Shown here one piece after another: positions 13,988-17,296 of a DNA stretch of 64,000 nucleotides. The translations under genes and the position numbers were made by a program. A model generated the notes under the pieces. That model made no database searches, was not told where the DNA came from, and worked only from the letters and a program-made list of their open reading frames with translations. Position 1 is the stretch's first letter; every line of letters starts with the position of its first letter. The DNA is from Mariprofundus sp. NF (GTDB lineage Bacteria; Pseudomonadota; Zetaproteobacteria; Mariprofundales; Mariprofundaceae), in assembly GCF_013387455.1 (NCBI RefSeq), contig NZ_VWNC01000004.1, positions 62,001-126,000 on the forward strand, read 5' to 3'.

Positions 13988-14800
13988 ATGAGACAACTGA
14001 CGATTGCCCTGCTTGTTCTGTTTTGCGCATCCACCGCCTGGGCTGAGGAGCAGGCTGATGCACCGCCACTGTTGGAGTTGGGCATTGCTGTGGGAGGCGC
14101 ATCCCTGCCACACTATATGGGCAGTGATGAGCGCTATCTCGTTGGTGCGCCTATTCCGTACGTCATCTATCGTGGTCAGCGTATGCGCATTGATCGCTCC
14201 GGTATCACACGCAAACTCTTCGGCTTTAACAGCATCAATATCGATGCATCACTGGGTGTGGGGCTACCGGTTCGCAATACCAATCGCGCCCGTGCCGGCA
14301 TGCCTGAACTTAAATTCAGTTTTGAGATCGGCCCACGCCTGAACTGGCAGATCATCGAAGAGGAAAACCGTAAACTTACGCTGCGCCTACCATGGCGTGG
14401 TGTGATTGATACATCCGGCAGCTGGTTGGGTTGGGTCGTTGAACCCGAATTAAGGTTTGAGCAGCAGCTAAGTGAGAAGCTACAACTCAACCTTGCTACA
14501 GGTGCCCTCTATGGTTCTACCGCCTATCATAAACACTACTACGATGTGGCCCCACCCTATGCCACGCCTACAAGGCCTGGTTATCAAGCCGGCAGAGGCC
14601 TGCACTCCTTCTCAGCTACGGTCAGCATGCGTTATAACATCAGTGAAACAGTGAACCTGTTCAGCGCCGTCCGTTATCGCAATCTCTCTGCCGGTGTAAT
14701 TACCGACAGTCCACTGGTAAAAGATAAAAACTACGTGGCAGTTGCAGCCGGTCTGGCCTGGAGCTTCTGGAGCTCTGAACGGCGCGGTTCAGCTGATTAG
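13988..14800 (+). CDS. MipA/OmpV family outer membrane protein
   Basis: 270-aa outer-membrane beta-barrel of the MipA/OmpV family. The signal peptide is MRQLTIALLVLFCASTAWA. The mature start shows the family pattern GIAVGGASLPHYMGSDERY followed by PIPYVIYRGQRMRIDRSG. It ends in alternating hydrophobic strands and a final LAWSFWS segment. MipA links murein-synthesising and hydrolysing enzymes in E. coli; many family members are plain outer-membrane proteins of unknown role. I start at ATG 13988, where the signal peptide begins. It is divergent from the glycosylase gene, and its 3' end overlaps the convergent PfkB gene by 12 bp. Confidence 0.87.
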   Translation: MRQLTIALLVLFCASTAWAEEQADAPPLLELGIAVGGASLPHYMGSDERYLVGAPIPYVIYRGQRMRIDRSGITRKLFGFNSINIDASLGVGLPVRNTNRARAGMPELKFSFEIGPRLNWQIIEEENRKLTLRLPWRGVIDTSGSWLGWVVEPELRFEQQLSEKLQLNLATGALYGSTAYHKHYYDVAPPYATPTRPGYQAGRGLHSFSATVSMRYNISETVNLFSAVRYRNLSAGVITDSPLVKDKNYVAVAAGLAWSFWSSERRGSAD

Positions 14801-15664
14801 AGAGGCAATCTCTAAAGCATTTGGCAGTGCAGGACGTGCTCCCAGTTTAGTGCAGGTCAGCGCACCGGCTGCAGAGGCGTAACGCAGCAGCTCCTGCCAC
14901 GTCAGATTAAGTGTAAGTCCGTAAGCGAAAGCACCATGAAAAGCATCTCCCGCTCCGGTGGAGTCGACTGCTTCAATATTAAAGGCGGGTAGGGAACCCT
15001 GTTCTCTCGATTTGGCCCAGATCAATCCCTTTTCGCCAAGTGTGATCACCACGTTTTCGGACACTGCTGCCAGTTCATCCAGCGCCAGCCCCATATCCTC
15101 ACTCTGGCACCACTGGCGTGCGAACTTCTCCGAGGCCACGAGATAATCAACACGCCCGGCCAGCTCCTGCGTTCCCTGGTGCAGTGATCCTGCATCAATC
15201 ACGGTTATTATATCATTGGCCTTAGCCCAACTGCACAGCGCCACAGAGAGCAGCGGTTCATGGCCATCAAACAGCATCACTTTAGGCCTGTTCTCTATGC
15301 TAACTGCATCCGCAGCAAGCCAGGAGGTATCACCCTTGTAGTTAACCAGTGAACGACTGCCATCGGCTTTGGCGAGAATCTGTGAGACAGGCGAAGGGTA
15401 CGAGCCACGTTGAATCAGCGAGGTATCAACACCCTCTGATTCCAACTCACCAAGATGGATATCACCGAAGAGATCGTTGCCGAGGTAACCACAGAATCCA
15501 GATGCAGCACCCAGTCGCGCCGCACACACTGCCGCATTGGCAGCAGGTCCACCGCCAGCCAGCTGCATGGCATCAGCAAATATCTTCTCATCCGCTCCGG
15601 GATGGGTAGCGGAGGACATGGTAATATCGTAGGAGGCGTGGCCGACACAGAGCAGATCAAGCAT
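14789..15664 (-). CDS. PfkB-family carbohydrate/nucleoside kinase
   Basis: 291-aa ribokinase-fold sugar kinase. The N-terminal PfkB signature region is LAGGGPAANAAVCAARLG near residue 35, followed by GFCGYLGNDLFGDIHL. The C-terminal ATP/catalytic signature is DSTGAGDAFHGAFAYGL near residue 237, whose aspartate acts as the base. The substrate is not evident: ribokinase, adenosine kinase and fructokinase relatives look alike at this level. It converges with the MipA gene. The long gap upstream (15665-16029) holds the 55-bp repeat array. Confidence 0.85.
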   Translation of the reverse strand: MLDLLCVGHASYDITMSSATHPGADEKIFADAMQLAGGGPAANAAVCAARLGAASGFCGYLGNDLFGDIHLGELESEGVDTSLIQRGSYPSPVSQILAKADGSRSLVNYKGDTSWLAADAVSIENRPKVMLFDGHEPLLSVALCSWAKANDIITVIDAGSLHQGTQELAGRVDYLVASEKFARQWCQSEDMGLALDELAAVSENVVITLGEKGLIWAKSREQGSLPAFNIEAVDSTGAGDAFHGAFAYGLTLNLTWQELLRYASAAGALTCTKLGARPALPNALEIASLIS

Positions 15665-15755
15665 GCAGCAAGCTTACCTTAAACGAGTGATGGCGGAATA
15701 GTTGTATGAAACGGAGAAAGAGGGGGTGCCATTAAGTTGCCCGGTTTGTTTGCAT

Positions 15756-16023
15756 AAAGGCCTAACGCGAAAGAGGCGAGTAACATTAAGTTACTCAGGT
15801 TTATGATATTAAAGGCCTAACGCGAAAGAGGCGAGTAACATTAAGTTACTCGGGTTTTTGATATTAAAGGCCTAACGCGAAAGAGGCGAGTAACATTAAG
15901 TTACTCGGGTTTTTGATATTAAAGGCCTAACGCGAAAGGGGCGAGTAACATTAAGTTACTCGGGTTTTTGATATTAAAGGCCTAACGCGAAAGGGGCGAG
16001 TAACATTAAGTTACTCGCCCCTT
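15756..16023. repeat. Five tandem 55-bp hairpin repeats beyond tRNA-Leu
   Basis: Units begin with AAAGGCCTAACGCGAAAG at 15756, 15811, 15866, 15921 and 15976, an exact 55-bp period. A degenerate half unit precedes at about 15727-15755. Each unit contains the palindrome GAGTAAC-ATTAA-GTTACTC. Units 2 and 3 look identical; unit 1 differs in the tail, and units 4 and 5 read GGGGCGAG in place of GAGGCGAG. The unit nearest the tRNA has the longest stem. No coding frame fits the array. It fills most of the 365-bp gap between the PfkB gene and tRNA-Leu. Confidence 0.92.
15989..16023 (-). terminator. Strong hairpin terminator after tRNA-Leu (last array unit)
   Basis: The unit next to the tRNA forms a perfect 15-bp stem, AAAGGGGCGAGTAAC pairing with GTTACTCGCCCCTTT around ATTAA. 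It begins 7 bases beyond the encoded CCA end of the leftward tRNA-Leu, which fits a terminator for the tpiA-secG-tRNA transcript. The other units keep only the inner part of this stem, which suggests the array grew by copying this terminator. Confidence 0.7.
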
Positions 16024-16029
16024 TCTTGT

Positions 16030-16116
16030 TGGTACCGGGGACTGGACTCGAACCAGCACGGATTTTACTCCACAGCGACCTCAACGCTGCGTGTCTACCA
16101 ATTTCACCACCCCGGC
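16030..16116 (-). tRNA. tRNA-Leu (GAG)
   Basis: 87-nt class II tRNA read leftward. The acceptor GCCGGGG pairs with CCCCGGT, followed by A and an encoded CCA. The anticodon loop TTGAGGT sits in the stem CAGCG/CGCTG, giving anticodon GAG for CUC/CUU leucine codons. It has a leucine-type variable arm and the T-loop GGTTCGAGTCC. It lies 37 bp after secG, the same arrangement as secG-leuU in E. coli. Confidence 0.95.
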
Positions 16117-16153: not shown

Positions 16154-16531
16154 TTATTCTGCTGTTGGAAGTCCATCTGCTGGTGCAGTTGAATTGCTCT
16201 TCAGTTTGGATGGATCAAAGCCACCTGTCAGCGGCTGTGACTGGGCAGGAGCCTCAACCGGAATTTCATCGATAATCGTCTGTTCGACAACAGAACCTAC
16301 CTGCTGCTGGGAGAAGAAGGCCAGTGTCAGACTGGTCACCATAAATGCTGCCGCCAGACCGCCTGTCATCTTACCCAAGAATGAGCCGGAACCACGACTT
16401 CCGAACAGGGTCTGTGCTCCGCCGCCACCAAAAGAGGCACCGATATCTGCACCCTGACCGCGCTGAACCAGGATCGTTCCGATCAGCAGCAGTGCAATCA
16501 GCACATGAATAATAATAAGAACTGTTGTCAT
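16154..16531 (-). CDS. secG: Preprotein translocase subunit SecG
   Basis: 125-aa inner-membrane protein of the SecYEG channel. Two hydrophobic segments (residues about 3-20 and 55-75) flank the conserved cytoplasmic loop LVQRGQGADIGASFGGGG ... TLFGSRGSGSFLGK. The tail is rich in P, Q, S and T, as in many proteobacterial SecG proteins. It follows tpiA by 15 bp and precedes tRNA-Leu, an order shared with many proteobacteria. Confidence 0.95.
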   Translation of the reverse strand: MTTVLIIIHVLIALLLIGTILVQRGQGADIGASFGGGGAQTLFGSRGSGSFLGKMTGGLAAAFMVTSLTLAFFSQQQVGSVVEQTIIDEIPVEAPAQSQPLTGGFDPSKLKSNSTAPADGLPTAE

Positions 16532-16546: not shown

Positions 16547-17296
16547 TTAGCTCGATGCTTTCGCAGCGGCCTGTACAATCGCCATAAACGAGTCCGCCTT
16601 CAGACTCGCGCCACCCACCAGCGCACCTTCCACGCCCGGGCAACCCATCAACTCTTCCGCGTTACCCGGATTCACACTGCCACCGTAAAGCACGCGGCAA
16701 TCATGACCCAGACGCTGCAACTCTGCATGCACAAATGCATGCGTTTCAGTCACCTGTTCAACCGATGCAGTCAAACCTGTGCCAATCGCCCATACCGGCT
16801 CATAGGCTACTGTCAGCGGTGCACTCTTAGGTGCGCCCTTGAGCACAGCCAGCTGCTCAGCCAGAACAGTGTTGGTAACACCCTTCTCGCGCTGCTCCAG
16901 TGTTTCACCGATGCAGAGGATCGGCTCAAGGCCATGCAACCAGGATGCGTTCATCTTCGAACGAATCTGGGCATTGCTCTCGCCAATAATGCTGCGACGC
17001 TCTGAGTGACCGATAATCACATAGTGACAACCGGCATCACGCAACATCATCGGACAGATAGAACCGGTAAAAGCACCCTTGTCTTCATAATAAACGTTCT
17101 GCGCGCCCAGTGCGATGCCCATCTCTGCCAGACGATCTGACATCGAATGCAATAGCGTGAATGGCGGCATCAGTCCCACTTCAATATGATCCGGTGCAGG
17201 GTTGCTGCCAAAATCATCCATAAAATCTTTCGCTTCCTGCAGTAGTCCGTTCATCTTCCAGTTGCCTGCTATCAACTTGCGCTTTTCATTGCTCAT
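16547..17296 (-). CDS. tpiA: Triose-phosphate isomerase
   Basis: 249-aa TIM-barrel enzyme that interconverts dihydroxyacetone phosphate and glyceraldehyde 3-phosphate. It serves glycolysis, gluconeogenesis and, in an autotroph, the Calvin cycle. Catalytic motifs are present: GNWKMNG (Lys), VIIGHSERR (His), AYEPVWAIGTG (Glu) and the phosphate-binding LYGGSVNPGN. It is the first gene of the leftward tpiA-secG-tRNA-Leu unit and divergent from rsmA. Confidence 0.97.
   Translation of the reverse strand: MSNEKRKLIAGNWKMNGLLQEAKDFMDDFGSNPAPDHIEVGLMPPFTLLHSMSDRLAEMGIALGAQNVYYEDKGAFTGSICPMMLRDAGCHYVIIGHSERRSIIGESNAQIRSKMNASWLHGLEPILCIGETLEQREKGVTNTVLAEQLAVLKGAPKSAPLTVAYEPVWAIGTGLTASVEQVTETHAFVHAELQRLGHDCRVLYGGSVNPGNAEELMGCPGVEGALVGGASLKADSFMAIVQAAAKASS

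Follow-up and report, generated by a model that had tools for sequence, protein, structure and literature searches.

The tandem hairpin array located behind tRNA-Leu(GAG) in the iron-oxidising bacterium Mariprofundus sp. NF is probably, judged from its sequence and that of related loci, the tRNA-Leu-linked member of a new, REP-like family of box-flanked palindromes found in Mariprofundus on the sense strand at the 3' ends of both tRNA genes and protein genes, and repeated tandem duplication of an incomplete unit would have enlarged it. The family is apparently previously undescribed, and a literature search found no paper combining Mariprofundus, tRNA and tandem repeat.

Architecture of the array

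In the window (the whole stretch of 64,000 nucleotides that was analysed), Tandem Repeats Finder identified positions 15755-16017 as the strongest tandem array by a wide margin (period 55, 4.8 copies, 98% matches, score 498). The array starts at the last base of tRNA-Leu(GAG) and comprises five 55-bp units followed by a decayed sixth, which upholds the first-pass annotation of five units plus a remnant at an exact 55-bp period; GAGTAACATTAAGTTACTC occurs five times at a spacing of exactly 55 bp. One further genomic copy of this core palindrome was detected on contig 11 (C11:10619-10637), where it follows a 3' fragment of tRNA-Met. The locus is organised as follows.

16547..17296, minus strand: tpiA (Pfam TIM, 1.2e-86)
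16154..16531, minus strand: secG, upstream of tRNA-Leu(GAG) and in the same direction (Pfam SecG, 6.8e-21)
16030..16116, minus strand: tRNA-Leu(GAG) (ARAGORN); the A-N-CAA format begins with the final A of its CCA (16030)
15982..16029, minus strand: unit 1, the complete element, ACAA + 37-nt hairpin (16-bp stem, loop TTAAT) + GCGTTAG
15927..15981, minus strand: unit 2, spacer + 8-bp core hairpin + 3' arm + GCGTTAG, without the 5' outer arm
15872..15926, minus strand: unit 3, partial architecture as unit 2
15817..15871, minus strand: unit 4, partial architecture as unit 2
15762..15816, minus strand: unit 5, partial architecture as unit 2, more diverged
about 15718..15745, minus strand: sixth unit, a remnant (GGGCAACTTAATGGCACCC...) that has lost the box (direct sequence reading)
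14789..15664, minus strand: pfkB-family kinase gene, next downstream and co-directional (Pfam PfkB, 3.7e-48)

A hairpin had been assigned to each unit, with a full-length stem beside the tRNA; the latter is borne out by unit 1, whose hairpin (15989-16025) adjoins tRNA-Leu(GAG) and has a perfect 16-bp stem, but in units 2-5 loss of the 5' outer arm leaves a stem of only 8 bp. Unit 2 matches unit 1 at all 55 nt, while unit 3 carries one difference, unit 4 two and unit 5 more, such that divergence does grow with distance from the tRNA, as first proposed. The minus strand of the array folds with a z-score of -11.4 relative to shuffled sequences, and a comparison with Rfam returned nothing above the gathering score except the tRNA, the remaining microRNA matches being due to chance.

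A common element format with covarying stems

All 45 tRNA tails of the window genome and 100 tRNA-Leu/Met tails from relatives, outgroups included, were read. The common format consists of A-N-CAA, a perfect stem of free sequence and GC-G-N'-TAG, and it was present as CCA-NC-AA-stem-GC-GN'TAG in 40 of the 100 tRNA-Leu/Met tails, CAA being found in 36 and GC in 39 of these 40. With 74.6 bits, unit 1 is one of the top-scoring sequences for covariance model R1. Two classes of hairpin were distinguished: class A has a GTGAC-TYAAT-GTCAC core and A/T tracts, and class B has TTAATAA-type loops and lacks a U-tract.

The outer 12 stem positions of 36 distinct hairpins pair at 96%, as compared to 57% with swapped arms (maximum 72% in 2000), and stem covariation across 34 tRNA tails is strong (0.533 versus 0.153 +/- 0.012 in shuffled and at most 0.189 in slid controls, the latter preserving the relatedness of the sequences), although both figures are upper bounds on independent support since the sequences are related by descent. 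When elements of every kind are pooled (57 distinct ones), A always precedes N, and the N:N' combinations are A-T (30), G-A (25) and G-C (2); the linkage of A with T is marked (p = 7e-17, a figure inflated by shared ancestry), and the common combination G-A is not a Watson-Crick pair. Sequestration of CCA through pairing with TAGG in the pre-tRNA is at most a possibility, as it is predicted in only approximately half of the tails and most elements at protein genes have no CCA.

Distribution and orthologous loci

A search with the motif AATGTNAC-n-TTTYGCGTTAG gave matches in 16 of the 23 Mariprofundus genomes and no match in 18 others. The broader tRNA-tail form ACCAACAA-n-GCGTTAGG was found in 19 of the 23 and was absent from 51 further members of the family; elsewhere in the phylum the broader form gave few matches, none of them palindromic by eye. 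The tRNA-tail form is thus restricted to Mariprofundus among the genomes tested.

The first-pass annotation had proposed a search for the unit elsewhere, and this revealed copies in the genome and in relatives, including orthologous arrays in strain KV, which has five units of 55 bp, and in M. ferrooxydans PV-1, which has at least five of 60 bp; in PV-1 a 138-base assembly gap lies between secG and the array, at the expected position of the tRNA. In KV, a P4-type tyrosine recombinase gene follows immediately after tRNA-Leu(GAG) (L154, 3083-4586), representing an integrated island with no counterpart at this position in the window genome, and the array is located on a different contig from the tRNA and integrase, behind a tRNA 3' fragment and beside the orthologous kinase gene. 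This arrangement indicates that the island was inserted between tRNA-Leu(GAG) and the array, which is thus resident chromosomal sequence. A mobile element carrying the array is ruled out at the tRNA locus, as the KV insertion left the array beside the kinase gene.

Six displaced tRNA-Leu 3' fragments that precede displaced tails (L017, L075, L086, L088, L089 and L331), spanning different species and isoacceptors, are all one G short and read CTCG-TACCA or CCCG-TACCA, not CGGTACCA; the tRNA-Met 3' fragments do not carry this change. Additionally, at one locus (L267, G011:C1:18650-19350) tRNA-Leu(GAG) has disappeared from behind secG and the tail hairpin persists, fully paired (AACAC...GTGTT); the tRNA-Leu(GAG) gene of that genome is found elsewhere (C1:2340004).

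Palindromes at the 3' ends of other genes

Dispersed copies were searched for in five genomes as CAAG-n-CGCG-N-TAG. Palindromes, including tRNA-linked ones, constituted 13 of 30 pattern matches in the window genome (0.75 expected) and 24 of 32 in PV-1 (1.2 expected). The search revealed palindromes far from tRNAs, upon which a purely tRNA-bound element was discarded. In the neighbourhoods of dispersed elements, N is preceded by A in 43 of 45 cases and N:N' is mostly G-A. With simple ORF calls and loci selected for holding elements, an ORF on the same strand ends no more than 60 nt away from 24 of the 45 elements, as against 10.7% of random positions. The stop codon is often at a fixed place within the 5' arm of the element, the encoded proteins then ending in (E/K)-Q-x-x-stop, and the host genes include glnD, nadE, a DinG-like helicase gene and a cation efflux gene. 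The common boxes, together with the copies that follow protein genes, show that the unit is part of a wider family, not a tRNA terminator alone.

Many short-type copies adjoin no long ORF end, and short copies are near-identical at many sites (CAAGCGGCGCTGTCCCGCCGCGCGATAG in PV-1); a search of plasmids with the short-type consensus returned nothing convincing. Between species, some orthologous loci have the element and others do not. In the glnD-linked palindrome, the central segment has opposite orientations in the window genome (CAACGGGTGTTG) and in KV (CAACACCCGTTG; L337 9861-9906 and L348 9842-9887). Near the rRNA of PV-1 (L349, 9796-9986) three elements stand in a row, the later ones following a truncated copy of the flank of the next terminator (ttcg..cataaaaaaagcccca), as if flank and element had been duplicated together.

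Proposed growth of the arrays from a gene-proximal unit

Additional arrays were identified behind protein genes, namely a second hairpin array in the window genome (contig 11, L344 9830-10064; 44 bp x 5.0), which lies behind the DinG-like helicase gene with the same polarity as the window array, and an array of 45 bp x 5.4 behind glnD in PV-1. In both, as in the window, only the first unit is complete; the partial units behind it are separated by a constant spacer, and the last ones are decayed. Across 19 arrays the stem of the first unit is mostly 15-16 bp and distal stems never exceed 11 bp, as determined with a simple stem finder that occasionally reports a spurious 5-bp stem in distal units, the first unit being outside the examined stretch in three arrays. 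In the window, units 1 and 2 share a CCCC variant that is paired with GGGG in unit 1 only (KV has CCTC/GAGG), which fits copying outward from the gene-proximal unit.

It may be envisaged that slippage or unequal exchange at the strong gene-proximal hairpin duplicated a segment composed of inner hairpin, 3' arm, box and downstream spacer, and that repetition of this event near unit 1 would account for the period, the missing arm and the polarity. Each new unit would therefore lack the 5' outer arm, unit 1 alone would remain complete and older units would decay with distance. The breakpoint is always inside the 5' arm, which chance slippage alone does not explain, and it is chiefly for this reason that a recombinase deserves consideration. 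The palindrome itself may spread through recognition of its shape and end boxes, and it would act as a folded single strand at the 3' end, shielding or delimiting the transcript in a REP-like manner. No transposase or other partner of the palindromes was found in the DNA examined.

Discussion

Mobilisation by a REP-associated tyrosine transposase (RAYT), with the hairpin and its AA/GC internal mismatch as recognition features, is a tentative proposal, which overlaps with the favoured reading of a box-flanked palindrome family and would name its mobiliser. The palindromes resemble REP/REPIN/BIME elements in being small, extragenic, dispersed (13 here and 24 in PV-1, with about one expected in each) and variable between species, with near-identical short copies at many sites and compensatory changes in the stem. 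They also share the AA/GC mismatch (evident from the CAA and GC counts of the tRNA tails) with E. coli REP, in which its alteration abolishes cleavage (PMC3733652). However, the ends A-N-CAA and GC-G-N'-TAG correspond to neither the GTAG nor the CGTC tag of RAYT-linked REP palindromes, and the RAYT signature motif had no match in 1.57 Mb of examined DNA, outgroup and duplicated loci included. Furthermore, the long-type stems are unrelated between loci, and the arrays are direct head-to-tail repeats, not inverted pairs, with later units that lack the 5' arm.

The original description of the array was that of an amplified tRNA terminator. The present data do support an amplification that started at the tRNA-proximal unit, with outward decay, but the terminator part is doubtful in view of sister tails without a U-tract and the scores of the distal units. 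The array is unlikely to represent an intrinsic terminator amplified into tandem back-ups that insulate tpiA-secG-tRNA-Leu from the downstream kinase gene. The units are indeed placed between co-directional genes, and with a d'Aubenton-Carafa-type score the very strong stem of unit 1 yields a borderline +7.7 and class A tails with long T-tracts reach +31. Conversely, distal units score -57 and -66, class B sister tRNA-Leu tails, with a box-flanked hairpin and no U-tract, score -53 to -81, and at least one of them, the Leu-CAG tail, has a separate, ordinary terminator (+23.8) behind its hairpin. A consensus terminator scan of the array found none on the tRNA strand, and the boxes are also present at protein genes and, in one case (L338), next to a terminator that already exists. 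As the format is present in tRNA-Leu tails without a U-tract, termination cannot be its unifying feature; first units of class A can terminate transcription as a secondary role, by which the shared boxes are not explained. Within the palindrome family, the distal units are probably by-products without terminator activity.

The first-pass proposal that the array serves as a source of small structured RNAs, or as a sponge for RNA or protein, is improbable: it lies in the direction of tRNA transcription, folds strongly (as noted above) and has a precedent in E. coli, where sponges derived from a tRNA-Leu 3' spacer are known, but its distal units decay and are not conserved, and unit sequence and period vary by species (55 bp here, 60 bp in PV-1). 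The E. coli tyrT repeat region (rtT RNA) consists of tandem units of approximately 178 bp that contain a tRNA 3' fragment; it is similar in that tandem repeats follow immediately after a tRNA gene, but the Mariprofundus units are 55 bp, hairpin-based, devoid of a tRNA fragment and part of a dispersed family. Similarly, pneumococcal BOX (boxA-boxB(n)-boxC) is a palindromic repeat whose inner module of approximately 45 bp is tandemly repeated, but its sequence and host are unrelated, and the Mariprofundus partial unit comprises the inner hairpin and the 3' arm.

It is very doubtful that the elements are integron attC sites, or derivatives thereof, recognised by an integron integrase. The A-T type reads AAC-AA-stem-GC-GTTAGG and so follows the attC box order with its A-rich and GC-rich spacers (PMC2727003), and the length (approximately 55 nt), gene 3'-end location and variable stem are likewise shared; moreover, five Mariprofundus members have full IntI matches, and real attC-like sites read TAACAA...GCGTTAG. 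R' (GTTRRRY) is present in many elements as GTTAGGC, but R'' is TACCAAC and not RYYYAAC, the G-A type has no AAC/GTT and the G-C type no GTT. The stems are perfect, lacking the extrahelical bases of attC sites, the first G of which is absolutely conserved (PMC2727003). The window genome contains no TIGR02249 match above the cut-off, and the elements persist without a full IntI both there and in PV-1. Membership of the attC class was therefore rejected on the R'' box, the extrahelical bases and the integrase. Integron integrases and attC-like sites were observed in EBB-1, OFTM252 and other Mariprofundus (L220, L221, L223; G012:C29:111365-112003), and a literature search found no detailed discussion of integrons in this genus. 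A highly speculative and improbable extension is that the palindromes behind ordinary chromosomal genes, including tRNA-Leu, form an attC-format pool usable by an integron integrase or a related single-strand recombinase; if true, gene-plus-attC cassettes would have a natural source, and the growth of the arrays in one direction would be explained.

The box-flanked palindromes are defined here by their linked end bases, their attachment to gene 3' ends and their tandem arrays of fixed polarity, and they caution that hairpin arrays behind tRNAs are not necessarily amplified terminators. Should a recombinase be involved, the origin of the 3' recombination hairpins of genes would become testable in a cultured genus.
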